Assembly: GCA_012517315.1 (NCBI GenBank)
Contig: JAAYVE010000024.1
Span: forward strand, 62,001 to 126,000
Source: Deltaproteobacteria bacterium
Lineage (GTDB): Bacteria; Desulfobacterota; Syntrophobacteria; Syntrophobacterales; Syntrophobacteraceae
Direction of reading: 5' to 3'
DNA length: 64,000 nucleotides
Positions 27,241 to 41,253 of the stretch are shown here, piece by piece. The notes under the pieces were generated by a model that was not told where the DNA came from, did not search any database, and saw only the letters and a program-made list of their open reading frames with translations. How positions within the stretch are numbered: the first letter of the stretch is position 1; the number at the start of each line of letters is the position of its first letter. Position numbers and translations under genes: made by a program.

Positions 27241-27694
27241 GACACTATCCCCCTGGTCCCGATGATCATGCCCCTTGGCAAGAGCCCCGTTTATACACCA
27301 ATGGGCGGAAGTCATCAACCTTGCCCATGCAAAGAGTACCCCCGAAACGGGTGAGGTTCACTCCGCATCATCGTGGCATGTCCTTTGCTCATTTACAGAC
27401 CCATCGCAGCTACCGGCTCACGAGGCGATGAACCCCGGTCCCATTGCGGGAGATTCACCCATGAGTCCCTGAAAAGAGGGCTTGGAGCTTAGCTCGGTCA
27501 GATGAAAGGGATTGGACTGGAAAAGGTCGAGGGTCACCCCCTGCGGCGGCATGCGGGGACTTCCCTGCGGCATGCGAGTTGCTTCATATGGGATTCGCTG
27601 CCGGAGATGGGGTGAAGGCGATGAAGGTGGGGACAGAATGCCCCCGCTGTTGAGGGAGAAAGGTTCAAATTGATCCACAAGAAGGATGGACGAG
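27241..27694. other. Divergent intergenic region
   Basis: About 450 bases between gatB (minus) and the FmdB gene (plus). No gene or recognisable RNA seen. Confidence 0.4.
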
Positions 27695-34481: not shown

Positions 34482-36626
34482 TCACTCCTTCAAGGACCCC
34501 GCCTTTTCCTCACCCAGCACGGGAGGCTTTCCAAGGGGGAGCTGTTTGAACCTTCCTCCCACAAGGACGGGGTCTCCGGCATACCCCAGCTTCTGGAAAT
34601 CGATGTAGTCGGTCACTTCCGCAAGGTTCAGCGTATCCCTTCCCCTGGAGTGGAGCACCTTGAAATCGATCCCTCGACGGGCAAGTTCCTTGAAGTCCAG
34701 GTTTCCTCTCTGCTGGTGACAGCGTCCGCAGGAGAGCTCATCCTTCAGACTCGAATGGCACTGAACGCAGGACAAGGCCCTGTCCTTGGGGGTGACCTCG
34801 TGCTTGAGCCCCCAGTACATGATCGTCCGCACCCACTTGTGATCTCCGCTGTATGAAAGGCCGGCGGCCTTCATCCCATTGTGAAAGGCAGTCTGCCAGT
34901 CCAGTTTGTCCCAGTATCCCCCCGGACCGAACAGGTGGAGAACGATGAGCATGTCTTGCCTTGCGTCGGCCATCTGAATCCCCTCCATGAGCTTGAAGGG
35001 AGTGATCTTGGAAGATGGATCGCGCATTGCTCCCACGGGCTCCGTGAGCTTGATGATGGCCTCCGTCCCGATGGGGTCCCCGAGGACGTACCGCCGCACC
35101 TTCCCATTGTACCACTGGTAATCGGGCTTGGCGCTCTCCTTCCATCTGAACTCACCCTTCATCCAGCTGTAGTCGGGCATTCCGTAATGGTCCATGGCGG
35201 GTTTCCGGGATTTGTCCCCCGCCTTGGACCAGTCCCACCACGTCTTGGTCGCCCTGCACTTGGCGTAGATGGGACTGTGACAAGTGTTGCAGGCGATGTG
35301 GGTCGTGTGCCGATTCAAATGATGAGCCAGCAGGTTTCCCGACGATTCAGGGTGCGGGACGGCCGTGTGGCAGTTCTCGCACGATCGGCTGCCTTCCGCC
35401 ACGGGGGCGGAGAGGCTTCTTCCCATGATCTGGTGGTTGCGGGTCTTGTGGCACTCCTGGCACTGAAAGTTCATGCCCCCCATGTGTACGTCGCACTCCT
35501 TCGTGGGATAATAGAGGATACTGTTCATATCCCCGTGTTTCACGGCGTCCCCACCCCCTCCCGAGAAGTGGCAGTCCCCGCACGTCTTCCGGCTCGGTTT
35601 CCCCACATTTTGTGCCACTTTCACCAGGTCCACTTCGGGATAAGGCATCCCGGCACCAGGGGGGGCCTTGGCGTATGTTTCGGTTGTGTCATGGCAAACG
35701 AGGCAATCGATGCGGCTCTTGTCCGAGAAGTCGAAACTGCCGTCCCTCCACCCGTATCCTGCGTGACAGCTGGTGCAGCGGGGCCAGTTGCTGGGGAGGG
35801 CGATGCAGAAGTTGTTGATGGTATTAGTGGCCTTGCCCAGGTGGACGTTCTTCTCATGGCCCTCCGTGAAGGGGGAGGGCCCCCGCCAAAGCCAGTGGGC
35901 GCTCTTGAGCATTTCCTCGCCCTGATTGTCATGGCAGCGGAGGCATTCCCGGGTTACCTCCATGGGACTCGGTTTTTCTGGAAGCTTCACCAGCTTGGTG
36001 TGATCCGGGACTTTCTTGGCGTGACATTCCGTGCATCCCACAGGCCCCTGGTTCCTTTCCTTGTGGCAGTCCATACACTGCCGGTGGTAGGCAGCCTTGA
36101 GGCCGATGCGATCGGCCCTGTCCGGTTCGAAGGATTTCCGGTGACACGCGGAACAACGGACGATTTCCGAGGCATCGGGTTCCGCCGGGCGGAAGTGATG
36201 GCAGCCCATGCAGTCGCCGAGAACAGCCGCATGCTTCTTGTGCATGAACCGGACGCCTGTGAATTGGTCTTCCTCCTCGTTGATGAGTGGGCTTTCCAGG
36301 ACGAGATAGCTGAACTTCTGATCGTTGAGCGTGACTGGCTTCCCTTCCAGCCTTTTCTTACGCTGTGCGGGAGTCTCCCTGAGGACTTCTTTCACGGCGG
36401 GGGGCACCAGGTGAGCCCTCTGAAGCGCCTCTTCCTGGACGACGGCTTTCCAGGGGTTTCCGTATTCGTCCACGGCAGCGGGGGGAGGGGGAGGTCCCTC
36501 TCCGGCCTTTTCCGCGCTCATGACACCGGGACCTATCAGGGTAAGAACCCACAAGATGAGAGCCACCGCCAGGGAAGAGAGCATCAGGTGGCCGCGGTGG
36601 ATACGGAGGATTCCTCCTGGTCTCAT
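34482..36626 (-). CDS. 13-heme c-type cytochrome: tetraheme plus octaheme tetrathionate-reductase-like
   Basis: A 714-residue exported multiheme cytochrome. Residues 10-36 form a signal peptide or anchor. Thirteen CxxCH motifs begin at residues 139, 158, 184, 198, 228, 284, 308, 349, 389, 416, 446, 620 and 633. The first four form a class III/c7-like tetraheme domain. The next eight sit in a domain that matches octaheme tetrathionate reductases: HWLWRGPSPFTEGH, NNFCIALPSNWPRCTSCHAG, CHFSGGGGDAVKHGD, KTWWDWSKAG and KPDYQWYNGKV. One extra heme is at the C-terminus. That family reduces tetrathionate, nitrite or hydroxylamine in vitro. ATGA overlap with hybB argues for a complex: quinol to HybB/HybA to cytochrome. 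The longer frame to 36860 is a shadow of hybB. Confidence 0.88.
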   Translation of the reverse strand: MRPGGILRIHRGHLMLSSLAVALILWVLTLIGPGVMSAEKAGEGPPPPPAAVDEYGNPWKAVVQEEALQRAHLVPPAVKEVLRETPAQRKKRLEGKPVTLNDQKFSYLVLESPLINEEEDQFTGVRFMHKKHAAVLGDCMGCHHFRPAEPDASEIVRCSACHRKSFEPDRADRIGLKAAYHRQCMDCHKERNQGPVGCTECHAKKVPDHTKLVKLPEKPSPMEVTRECLRCHDNQGEEMLKSAHWLWRGPSPFTEGHEKNVHLGKATNTINNFCIALPSNWPRCTSCHAGYGWRDGSFDFSDKSRIDCLVCHDTTETYAKAPPGAGMPYPEVDLVKVAQNVGKPSRKTCGDCHFSGGGGDAVKHGDMNSILYYPTKECDVHMGGMNFQCQECHKTRNHQIMGRSLSAPVAEGSRSCENCHTAVPHPESSGNLLAHHLNRHTTHIACNTCHSPIYAKCRATKTWWDWSKAGDKSRKPAMDHYGMPDYSWMKGEFRWKESAKPDYQWYNGKVRRYVLGDPIGTEAIIKLTEPVGAMRDPSSKITPFKLMEGIQMADARQDMLIVLHLFGPGGYWDKLDWQTAFHNGMKAAGLSYSGDHKWVRTIMYWGLKHEVTPKDRALSCVQCHSSLKDELSCGRCHQQRGNLDFKELARRGIDFKVLHSRGRDTLNLAEVTDYIDFQKLGYAGDPVLVGGRFKQLPLGKPPVLGEEKAGSLKE

Positions 36627-37846
36627 GAGATCACCTCCCTGGGCGTCCTGGTCCTGCGAGGTGAAAGGATGGGCAGATGCGTCACCAGCAAGCGGTAAAG
36701 GAACATGAGGGCCGCGATGAGCCCCGCCGTCACGGCCATTTCTCCGATGGACGGAAAATAGGATACCTGGGCATGGGGTGGGCGGTAGCCCACGAGAAAG
36801 ACGTTGAGGCGGTTGAGGACGACGCCTCCGATGACGAAGCAGACGGCGACAAAAAGCCAACGCCTGGATTGGCGCACCTGAGGGGAGAGGAGCATGAGCC
36901 AGGGGAGAACCCCTACGAGGAGCAATTCCACGAGAAATGCGTTGCTCTGGGACGTTCCGTCGAAAAGGTGCACGTAAGTGCCACGAACCGCCATGTCTCC
37001 CAATTTGAGTGCCAGGGGAATCCCCAAGAGCACGACAGTGAGACGACCGAGAGATGCCATGAGCTGTGTTTCGTCTTCAAGGGGAATGGAACTGGATGCC
37101 AGGGTGTATTCAAAGATGACCATGGGAAAACCTACAGCGATGGCGGATGTGAGAAAGAGCAACGGGAGAATGGGCGTGTACCACAAGGGGTGGAGCTTGC
37201 TTGGAGCGATGAGCATGAGGGAGCCCAGTCCCGACTGGTGCATGCAGGAAAGGACCACCCCGCCGATGACGAACACCCACATGACCTTGCCGAGGGTGCG
37301 GTCGGCCAGCCCCAGGAAACGCTCGGCAATGCCGTTCATGGCCTTGAGAGCACCGGGGAGGTTGACCCGCCCCTTGAAGCGCTCGATCACAATGGGAATG
37401 AACTCCAGGTAAAGGACATGCGTGTAGATGACCACGCACATGGCGACCTCGAACAGGACGGAGTTCCCCTGCCAGTAAATGATGGGATGCCAGATGGCCC
37501 AGGATCGACCGATGTCGATCATGAGGGCGATAGGTACCATGGTGTAACCCAGCATGGCGGTGAACAGGGCGGGGCGCACGACGGGCTCGTATCGACGCCG
37601 GCCGAAGATGTAGGCCAGTGCGGCGGTGGTGAAGCCGCCCGCGGCCAAGGCGACCCCCGTGGCCACGTCGATGCCGATCCAGATTCCCCAGGGGCATGTT
37701 TGGTCCAAATTGGTCACAGCCTGGAGTCCCCCCATGAAACGGGCAACGATGAAAGCCCCTCCAGCAGCCATGAAGGCGGTGAGGACCAGCACACCCGGTG
37801 TCCAGAAAGGCGCCTGTACAGGAAGAGGTTTTGCGTGGGAGTTCAT
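36623..37846 (-). CDS. HybB/NrfD-type quinone-interacting integral membrane protein
   Basis: A 407-residue polytopic protein with about 10 hydrophobic segments, of the NrfD/PsrC superfamily and closest to HybB, the membrane subunit that exchanges electrons between a periplasmic ferredoxin and the quinone pool. Visible family features are the first helix TPGVLVLTAFMAAGGAFIV, DQTCPWGIWIGIDVATGVALAAGGF, SWAIWHPIIYWQGNSVLFEVA and the CMHQSGLGSLMLIAPSKLHPLWYTP loop. It overlaps both neighbours by ATGA (hybA stop and cytochrome start), so translation is coupled. No hydrogenase structural genes accompany it. Confidence 0.9.
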   Translation of the reverse strand: MNSHAKPLPVQAPFWTPGVLVLTAFMAAGGAFIVARFMGGLQAVTNLDQTCPWGIWIGIDVATGVALAAGGFTTAALAYIFGRRRYEPVVRPALFTAMLGYTMVPIALMIDIGRSWAIWHPIIYWQGNSVLFEVAMCVVIYTHVLYLEFIPIVIERFKGRVNLPGALKAMNGIAERFLGLADRTLGKVMWVFVIGGVVLSCMHQSGLGSLMLIAPSKLHPLWYTPILPLLFLTSAIAVGFPMVIFEYTLASSSIPLEDETQLMASLGRLTVVLLGIPLALKLGDMAVRGTYVHLFDGTSQSNAFLVELLLVGVLPWLMLLSPQVRQSRRWLFVAVCFVIGGVVLNRLNVFLVGYRPPHAQVSYFPSIGEMAVTAGLIAALMFLYRLLVTHLPILSPRRTRTPREVIS

Positions 37847-38772
37847 GGACGCCCCTCCTCGGTACGATCTGCCCTGTCTTTATTGGTCGTTTTCGGCCTG
37901 TTGAACCACATCACTCCCCCGAGAACCCCGAATAGGGTCAGAGGGGCCCACAGAAAGCTGAAGAGTCCGTGCTGAATGGCCTCGGTCAAGTGGGGAACGG
38001 GGCGTGAGGGAAGATCGAGGAACCCCAGTTTTTCGAAGGGTTCCCCCGAGAGGTAGAGCCAGCCGGTGCCGCCCACCTCCCGTTCTCCATAGATGCGGTC
38101 GATGTAGCGGCCGGGGTCGTTGCGGATTCTTTGCCGGGCCAACTCAAGCAGTGTGTCCCGTCTTCCAAAAGTGATGGCTTCCACGGGGCAGATGGCGGCA
38201 CAAGCGGGTTTGCCCCCTTCCCGGCTGATGACGTCCGCGCAGAAGGTGCACTTCATGACCCGCGGCGTGATGGGGTCTGCGTATTCGTAGTTTGGGACCT
38301 GGAACGGGCACGCGATCATGCATTAGCGGCAGCCGATGCACTTGGACACGTCGTAGAAAACCGCTCCGTCGCCCCTTCTCTGAAGGGCTCCCACAATGCA
38401 GGCGGAAACGCATGCAGGCCTGAGACAGTGCATGCACTGAGTCTTGACGAACACGGGGACGGGACGGTTCCTCTCGTCCAGGCGCCCCGTGTGATAACGA
38501 TTCACCACCGTATACTGCGTGGGCTCCAGCTCCCTCCTTCGATCCAGCACCGGCAGGTCGTCAAAGGGTTCCGCAGGGGCGGGCAGCCCGTTGATCCGGT
38601 TGCAGGCCTATTCACATTTTCGGCAGCCCACGCAAAGGGTCAGGTCCACAAGGCAGCCGAGGGAGTCCTTTTCTCCCGCAGATGGTGTCGATCCTTCAGC
38701 GGGAGCGGCCACCAGGGGTACCGTCGCCAATGCCCCAACTGTCTTGAAGAAGTCCCTTCGATGGAGTCTCAT
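37843..38772 (-). pseudogene. HybA-like 4Fe-4S ferredoxin interrupted by two in-frame stops
   Basis: Reading from ATG 38772 (GGAG site) gives a 309-residue HybA-like protein: Tat motif RRDFFK with signal segment, four cluster motifs (CVGCRKCE, CMHCLRPACVSAC, CIGCR, CTFCADV...CAAIC), the GTGWLYLSGEPFEKLGF region and a C-terminal membrane helix. Two nonsense codons break it: TAG between CVGCRKCE and ACN, where tryptophan is expected, and TAA between CIGCR and CMIACPF, where tyrosine is expected. Frame and all other motifs are intact and the downstream genes overlap by ATGA. It may be a recent pseudogene, base-calling error or readthrough. Translation could restart weakly at ATG 38319. Confidence 0.85.
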
Positions 38773-38997: not shown

Positions 38998-39360
38998 CTA
39001 GAAAGTCAGAACCTTGAAGTTGGGATCGACAAGCATATGGGCAAGATCGACCGCACTGGAAATCTTGGATCCCTCGATGAGTTCGTCGGGACCGATGAGC
39101 CGCTTGTCCGCACAGGCCTTGCACACATGGATGAGACACTTCCTGCTGATGAGTTTGTCGAGCATGTCCTTGAGGGATTCCCCCGTGGTGGCGCGGATTC
39201 CCTCGGCCATGCCGATCTGAGCCCAGTGGATTGCGTCATCGATGAGAAAAACCTCCACCGGGTGACCCTCTTCGGCGACAATCGCGGCGAACTGCATGGC
39301 CCTGGTCGCTCCTCCTGCCTTTTCCAATCCCTTGGAAATGATGAAAAGCAGCTTTTGCAT
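38998..39360 (-). CDS. DsrE-family sulfur-relay protein
   Basis: A 120-residue DsrE/DsrF-like protein (KLLFIISKGLEKAGGATRAMQFA, VEVFLIDDAIHWAQIG). The cysteine in HVCKACADKRLI is at the position used for persulfide transfer in DsrE/TusD-type proteins. Likely a cytoplasmic sulfur carrier or regulator. ATG with GAGGAGG. It is the first gene after the sigma-54 promoter, 225 bases upstream of the HybA-like gene in the same direction, so the whole set may be one transcript. Confidence 0.85.
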   Translation of the reverse strand: MQKLLFIISKGLEKAGGATRAMQFAAIVAEEGHPVEVFLIDDAIHWAQIGMAEGIRATTGESLKDMLDKLISRKCLIHVCKACADKRLIGPDELIEGSKISSAVDLAHMLVDPNFKVLTF

Positions 39361-39695
39361 GAACTCCTCCTCTTGCTGTGCTCATGTTGGTTAAAATGGG
39401 TTCGATGGTTTTCACCAAATCAAACCCGGTCCCTGGAAACAAAGAGCGCCGGGGAAGGCTCGCCCTTTCCCTCCGAAAAAGAAATGCCTGTCCCTCGGGC
39501 TTGGAGACTTTGCGGCCAAACGTTCCCTGCAGCCCACTCGGCTGACTCTCTCCCCAACCTCAGGGAGAATGAAACGGGGAGTCTTTCAGCTTTCCAGTGC
39601 TCCCCGGATCGCTTTGCATCGCCCGGGAACCGTTCTGTCAAAAAAACGGGCGACGAAGAGGCGGCGGGAGACCGCGAATTTCCGCCAATGTACTA

Positions 39696-39711
39696 AGCAA
39701 CTCGGGTGCCA
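39696..39711 (-). promoter_or_regulatory. Sigma-54 (-24/-12) promoter facing dsrE operon
   Basis: Minus strand TGGCAC-CCGAG-TTGCT, matching the RpoN consensus with exact GG/GC spacing; -24 at 39706-39711 and -12 at 39697-39700. Transcription would begin near 39685 towards dsrE. Confidence 0.75.
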
Positions 39712-39815
39712 CAAAGTGAAAAATGCAGCCATGCGCAAAATTAATGAGCGCAATCGGGATGTTAGGAAGGAAGGGCCGCCTGTGGCATGACAAAAAGGGT
39801 GTTGTCGTGATATGG

Positions 39816-39840
39816 GTTGTTTAAACAGTGTTTAAACAAC
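39816..39840. promoter_or_regulatory. 11-3-11 perfect palindrome, likely enhancer/operator of the regulator
   Basis: GTTGTTTAAAC, AGT, GTTTAAACAAC: exact 11-base arms. It lies about 130-155 bases upstream of the sigma-54 transcription start and 30 bases before the regulator start, the usual place for a binding site of a sigma-54 activator that also controls itself. Confidence 0.7.
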
Positions 39841-39870
39841 CTGCCGGCAAATCGAAGGGAAAGCAGACAC

Positions 39871-41253
39871 ATGGATCGCGAAGAAGACAACCGCTGTTTC
39901 AAGGAAATCATCAACACCATGAACGACGGTTTGGTGCTGGTGTCCCCCGACGGGGAGATCCTTATGGTCAATCGGGCGATGGAAGAAATCACGGGCTATT
40001 CGAGGGAGGAATTGGTGGGGAGTTCGTGCACCATTTTCCACTGTGACACTTGCGCAGTGGCTCGGGCCGAAGGAAAGGGCCATTGGTGCGAGATTTTCGA
40101 TCTAGGCCGAACCGAGCGAAGATCCTGTTTCCTCATGCGAAAAGACGGTTCCGTCGTCCACGTTCTCAAGAACGCGTCTCTTCTCAAAGACTGCGAAGGC
40201 CGGGTCATGGGGGCCGTGGAGACGGTGACGGATATCTCCGAGATCGACAGGAGGGATTTGAGGATCGAACAGCTTTCGAAACTCCTGGGTGCCGATGCGA
40301 CTTTTCACGGCATGGTGGGGTGCTCCCCCGTCATGAGAAACGTTTTCGAGATACTCGAAAAAGCAGCCCAAAGCGACGCTCCGGTCATTATTTACGGGGA
40401 GACGGGCACGGGGAAAGAACTGGCAGCCCACGCCATTCATCAGATGGGCCGGCGGCGGGAAGGGCCCTACATCCAACTCAACTGTGCCGCTCTGAACGAG
40501 TCTCTCTTGGAAAGCGAACTTTTCGGCCATGTGAAAGGCGCTTTCACTGGTGCTTACAGCCACAGGAAGGGGTATTTCGAGGCAGCCCACGGGGGGGACC
40601 TCTTTCTGGACGAAATTGGAGAGGTTCCCCCGTCGCTCCAGGTGAAGCTCCTGAGGACCCTGGAGACGAAGGAGTTGGAGCGGGTGGGGGATCATCGTCC
40701 CATTCGGGTGGACGTGCGCATCATCACCGCCACCAATCGCGATCTGGAAGCCTTGGTTTCCCAGGGAAAATTCCGGGAGGATTTCTTCTTCCGCATCAAC
40801 GTCATCCCCATCCATCTCCCTCCCCTGAGAGAGCACATGGAGGACCTTCCCCTGCTGGTGGAGCATTTCATTCGCCGGTTGGCCCGGAGAAGCGGCAAAA
40901 AGATCTCCGGCCTGAGCCCTGAGGCGATGGAGTGGTTCATGAGCCATCCGTGGCCTGGGAACGTGAGGGAGTTGAGAAGCGTTCTGGAATACGCCTTTGT
41001 CATCGCTGAAAAGGGGTTCATCCGCACGGAGCATTTGCCCTTGCGCATGAAAACCGGAGGAACCCTCACCGTTCAAATCCCCGAGGCCCGACCGATCCCG
41101 GTTTCCGATGAAAAGGCCGCTCTGCTGGATGCTCTCGTGCGGTGCCGTGGCAACCAGACTCAGGCTGCCCGGATGCTGGGGGTCAACCGGGTCACCGTCT
41201 GGAACCGCATCCGCAAATATGGGATTGATCTCCACAGCCTGCTTGCGCCGTAA
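39871..41253 (+). CDS. Sigma-54-dependent PAS-AAA-Fis transcriptional activator
   Basis: A 460-residue activator. The N-terminal PAS domain (about 8-125) is cysteine-rich (SSCTIFHCDTCAVARAEG, HWCEIF), suggesting a redox, metal or iron-sulfur sensing role. The AAA domain (about 145-380) has Walker A GETGTGKE, the GAFTGA loop that contacts sigma-54, DEIGEVPPSLQ and FRINVIPIHLPPLR. The C-terminal Fis-type helix-turn-helix is GNQTQAARMLGVNRVTVWNRI. ATG 39871 with AAGGGA; the extra upstream frame covers the palindrome and is unlikely to be coding. It is divergent from the dsrE-hybAB-cytochrome operon, which has a matching sigma-54 promoter. Confidence 0.93.
   Translation: MDREEDNRCFKEIINTMNDGLVLVSPDGEILMVNRAMEEITGYSREELVGSSCTIFHCDTCAVARAEGKGHWCEIFDLGRTERRSCFLMRKDGSVVHVLKNASLLKDCEGRVMGAVETVTDISEIDRRDLRIEQLSKLLGADATFHGMVGCSPVMRNVFEILEKAAQSDAPVIIYGETGTGKELAAHAIHQMGRRREGPYIQLNCAALNESLLESELFGHVKGAFTGAYSHRKGYFEAAHGGDLFLDEIGEVPPSLQVKLLRTLETKELERVGDHRPIRVDVRIITATNRDLEALVSQGKFREDFFFRINVIPIHLPPLREHMEDLPLLVEHFIRRLARRSGKKISGLSPEAMEWFMSHPWPGNVRELRSVLEYAFVIAEKGFIRTEHLPLRMKTGGTLTVQIPEARPIPVSDEKAALLDALVRCRGNQTQAARMLGVNRVTVWNRIRKYGIDLHSLLAP

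Follow-up and report, generated by a model that had tools for sequence, protein, structure and literature searches.

A predicted operator for a divergent PAS-AAA+-Fis activator, paired with a sigma-54 promoter ahead of dsrE

The dsrE-activator locus

The window (the whole stretch of DNA analysed, 64,000 nucleotides) contains a sigma-54 promoter and a palindrome between dsrE and a divergently encoded activator gene, with genes for an octaheme-cytochrome complex beyond dsrE. The features, with window coordinates, are as follows.

34482-36626, minus strand: octaheme c-type cytochrome of the tetrathionate reductase family (OhcA-like; TIGR04315 above cut-off)
36623-37846, minus strand: NrfD/HybB-type membrane subunit (OhcC-like)
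37843-38772, minus strand: OhcB/HmcB-like iron-sulphur protein gene with two in-frame stops
38998-39360, minus strand: dsrE (DsrE/DsrF-like; Pfam PF02635), the first gene past the promoter
39361-39685, minus strand: predicted untranslated leader of ~325 nt ahead of dsrE
39711-39696, minus strand: sigma-54 promoter TGGCACCCGAGTTGCT (-24/-12), an exact consensus match, with transcription predicted to start near 39685
39787-39816, plus strand: candidate sigma-70-type promoter of the activator gene, ATGACA-18-TATGGG, at a position homologous to the TTGnnn-N17/18-TATnnn of relatives
39815-39841, no strand: 13-1-13 palindrome GGTTGTTTAAACA-G-TGTTTAAACAACC, the predicted activator binding site
39871-41253, plus strand: activator gene with PAS, AAA+ sigma-54 interaction and Fis-type helix-turn-helix (HTH) domains (Pfam PF00158 and PF02954; alignment)

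The promoter TGGCACCCGAGTTGCT has zero mismatches to the TGGCAC-N5-TTGCW consensus and contains the GG-N10-GC of -24/-12 elements. An earlier note on this DNA had described the site as near-consensus and as pointing to dsrE, which is indeed the first gene past it on the minus strand. A Markov model predicts 0.13 exact TGGCAY-N5-TTGCW strings for a window of this size, which has two. The other, at 27374 on the plus strand, has no evident gene ahead of it and is probably a chance match. The genome encodes rpoN (TIGR02395 above cut-off, 474 bits).

The palindrome was previously described as 11-3-11, which is exact as written, but the repeat is actually larger, with 13-nt arms around one base. No other inverted repeat in the window combines perfect arms of 11 or more with a gap of 0-8. 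Allowing up to 3 mismatches, it had no chance matches in 100 shuffles, and a pattern search finds it once in the 4.43-Mb genome. The palindrome is best read as a pair of 10-bp palindromes, TGTTTAAACA, spaced 11 bp apart, as would be expected for a dimeric HTH protein on one helix face. Its centre lies ~131 bp from the -12 element, within the ~80-200 bp expected of such a dyad. Given a start near 39685, it spans ~130-156 bp upstream, essentially the 130-155 bases first estimated.

The activator is a 460-residue one-component protein with intact Walker and GAFTGA motifs, and its start codon position was taken from the orthologue alignment. The PAS region (window 39871-40200) has five cysteines, at 53, 58, 61, 73 and 86, that are invariant in ten orthologues and hint at a sensor of the metal, iron-sulphur, redox or persulphide kind. 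Among solved chains, those nearest to the activator are ZraR, NifA and NtrC-family proteins. A scan of genome contigs with the activator alignment turned up other activators, none exceeding 51% identity over its best segment. The window's own genome encodes a paralogue of the activator, 54% identical (L062, G000:C15:32365-33747), with a divergent sigma-54 site and TusA/Hdr-type gene cluster of its own. The candidate activator promoter, ATGACA-18-TATGGG, is weak, and the consensus promoter scan did not report this site.

On the other side of the intergenic region, the dsrE start at 39360 implies the leader of ~325 nt, a point absent from the earlier note. This leader is unusually long, and searches of it found no TusA remnant and no Rfam match. 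The OhcB-like gene has a TAG at codon 55 (38610-38608) and a TAA at codon 150 (38325-38323), both on the minus strand, in a frame that is otherwise open; in relatives the two codons read Q or E, and Y. A search for PylRS found none above cut-off. Together, these observations indicate that the OhcB-like gene is probably inactivated, or else that the stops are assembly errors. Reading the TAG as pyrrolysine was rejected, given the PylRS result and the fact that the second stop is a TAA. The two stops also raise the possibility that the operon is decaying. No such stops interrupt dsrE or the genes for the membrane subunit and the cytochrome; the cytochrome gene's start was placed where it overlaps the stop of the gene before it. 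Scans of the gap that follows dsrE reported neither a terminator-like nor a sigma-70-like site ahead of the next gene. Transcription from the sigma-54 promoter probably reaches the octaheme-cytochrome complex genes beyond dsrE.

Conservation of promoter and motif among activator homologues

Homologues of the activator were drawn from the family, order and class. The earlier note had proposed a search for the palindrome beside orthologues, with lack of conservation of promoter or palindrome as the outcome that would count against it; both elements proved to be kept in the close orthologues. There, a minus-strand sigma-54 site and a pair of TTTAAAC units lie just upstream of the activator gene, within surrounding DNA that has diverged and can be aligned only poorly. 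For example, the 19-bp core TGTTTAAACAGTGTTTAAA is identical in a genome of the same genus (G001), where the remaining intergenic region aligns poorly. Nearly all homologues with a divergent neighbour, distant ones included, have a sigma-54 site (TGGCAY-N5-TTGCN) facing away from the activator gene, in most cases with a score reached by 0-1% of Markov shuffles. Homologues without such a site mainly have a non-divergent upstream gene (L039, L042 and L044-L046).

The motif was scored with the window's 21-bp core as template over the 100 bp before each activator gene (220 bp for L043). Matches had p ≤ 0.005 in seven of the 12 other orthologues and p = 0.052 in one more, and none of the 33 other homologues fell below p = 0.08. 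The contrast between 8/12 orthologues and 0/33 other homologues gives a Fisher value of 2.3e-6, although this figure and the motif p-values are guides, since the orthologues are mutually related and some were picked after the motif had been noticed. L036, L043, L039 and L201 had no significant match to the template with its 11-bp unit spacing; in L036 and L043 the units are 12 bp apart. In the regulator tree, the window's activator groups with seven other motif-bearing regulators (100/100), inside a supported set of 22 (100/98). Other regulator subclades have different motifs at the corresponding region. Members of one of these (L047, L049, L050, L052 and L063) share a conserved block of their own, ~GATTGTTAACTGTCAATGTTTTACACTTAACA, which is separated from their sigma-54 sites by an enhancer-like distance.

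The spacings that separate the first TGTTTAAACA-like unit from the left end of the sigma-54 site are 122 (window), 122 (G001), 119, 122, 121, 121, 102, 111, 122, 109 and 134 bp. Spacing is near-constant, seven of the 11 loci falling at 119-122 bp (full range 102-134), and the paired units are 11-12 bp apart. Helical phasing of these spacings looks suggestive, but p = 0.067 over distinct values. Genome-wide, the 18-bp TTTAAAC-N4-TTTAAAC with at most 1 mismatch has unrelated matches in some genomes about as frequently as a reversed control, so these were discarded as evidence of a wider regulon.

In relatives L033-L040, L156, L200 and L201, a TTGnnn-N17/18-TATnnn lies directly before or within the motif; these sigma-70-type promoters were read by eye and partly scored. 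The position of the motif over the activator's own promoter in orthologues suggests autoregulation.

A proposed site for both genes

So, what is the palindrome? Since related bacteria preserve the layout of the predicted switch, the palindrome very likely serves the sigma-54 promoter as landing site of the divergent PAS-AAA-Fis activator. The earlier proposal of one activator binding site for both genes gains support from the conserved motif and spacing, the intact GAFTGA motif and Fis-type HTH, and the presence of rpoN. A role at both genes is plausible because the motif in relatives overlaps a conserved sigma-70-type activator promoter. In the window, a transcript from ATGACA-18-TATGGG would start inside the palindrome, so binding there could repress the activator gene, and the palindrome is probably also its autoregulatory operator.

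In the mechanism that we propose, the activator would bind the two TGTTTAAACA units as an upstream activating sequence, ~131 bp from the -12 element. The cysteine-containing PAS domain would be triggered by a signal tied to sulphur or redox state, after which the AAA+ domain would assemble and DNA looping would bring it to sigma-54 RNA polymerase at 39711-39696. Opening of the promoter would lead to transcription of dsrE and probably of the octaheme-cytochrome complex genes. Binding would probably limit the activator's own expression too, since the site and the start region of its sigma-70-type promoter overlap.

The same overlap could be taken to mean that the palindrome is an operator for autorepression only, with the divergent sigma-54 promoter activated through another site or none. 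In orthologues, the -10 of the activator's sigma-70-type promoter is either overlapped by the motif or stands immediately before it, which fits this reading, but it does not account for the nearly constant spacing between motif and sigma-54 site. In L043, moreover, the motif is shifted away from the activator start (~-171 to -139) and yet retains its enhancer distance to the sigma-54 site, and the alignment has no evident second conserved block between motif and sigma-54 site. Autorepression alone is therefore an unlikely explanation.

AT-rich dyads of the TTGTT...AACAA type resemble sites of other families, and the palindrome might instead serve a different regulator as its operator, for instance a Rex- or CRP/FNR-type protein, and lie between these genes by happenstance. 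Against this, the motif tracks the clade of the activator, and the palindrome is found at one place only in the genome. Rex or CRP sites are single dyads, shorter than the palindrome here, and are unlike two units 11 bp apart. We regard an unrelated regulator as improbable. Least credible, and strongly disfavoured, is that neither the sigma-54 match nor the palindrome has a regulatory role, both being chance or structural sequence: the string at 27374 illustrates that an exact sigma-54 match probably can arise by chance, but chance would hardly preserve both elements and their spacing in diverged intergenic DNA. A predicted activator site serving the sigma-54 promoter is the reading that we carry forward.

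Outputs of the switch and comparison with known systems

In many homologues, a small TusA-like gene with a short leader comes first after the sigma-54 site. It is followed by Hdr-type genes in L037, L038, L040, L047 and L064, by DsrE in L033 and by an Ohc-like complex in L043, the names of these neighbours being resemblances read from translations. Regulators of this group with TTTAAAC-type units also occur beside ohcB-like genes (L036, L043, L200 and L201), and in other families, too, relatives of the activator neighbour such genes. The window and G001 have no TusA gene ahead of dsrE, and their leaders are ~315-325 nt long. The G001 leader (L156, ~3397-3341, minus strand) includes a 19-codon fragment resembling the dsrE start, located before an intact dsrE; this is perhaps the remnant of a duplicate.

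We tentatively suggest that these cysteine-rich PAS sigma-54 activators form a family with one fixed operator that acts as a sulphur/redox switch. Its output may have been exchanged between lineages (TusA-DsrE-Hdr sulphur-transfer genes versus the octaheme-cytochrome complex), and the operator would incorporate the promoter of the activator itself. The analysis gives these sensors, a so far uncharacterised family of sulphur-metabolising bacteria, a concrete and testable predicted operator. The placement of DsrE/TusA sulphur carriers and the octaheme-cytochrome complex under one predicted switch links them, and could help to identify both the substrate of the complex and the signal.

The layout is ordinary for sigma-54 control, and a circuit of this type is already known. 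In Desulfovibrionales, as predicted by Kazakov et al. 2015, the one-component sigma-54 activator DVU3142 controls a divergent ohcBAC octaheme operon; their computational prediction for Desulfovibrio vulgaris includes sigma-54 promoters and activator sites (PMC4641369). Compared by layout, the window shares with that system a GAFTGA one-component activator, a divergent sigma-54 promoter and octaheme-cytochrome complex genes. Unlike the ohcBAC operon, the window has dsrE first and its ohc-like genes in another order, and in the window's relatives TusA/Hdr genes can replace the ohc-like genes. The predicted operator is what is newly defined here. With regulators of the NtrC/NifA/ZraR type, the activator shares the AAA+ sigma-54 activation domain, the Fis-type HTH and a dyad ~130 bp upstream. 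It differs from them in having a PAS domain with five invariant cysteines and no receiver or GAF domain, and its predicted site is a pair of TGTTTAAACA units.
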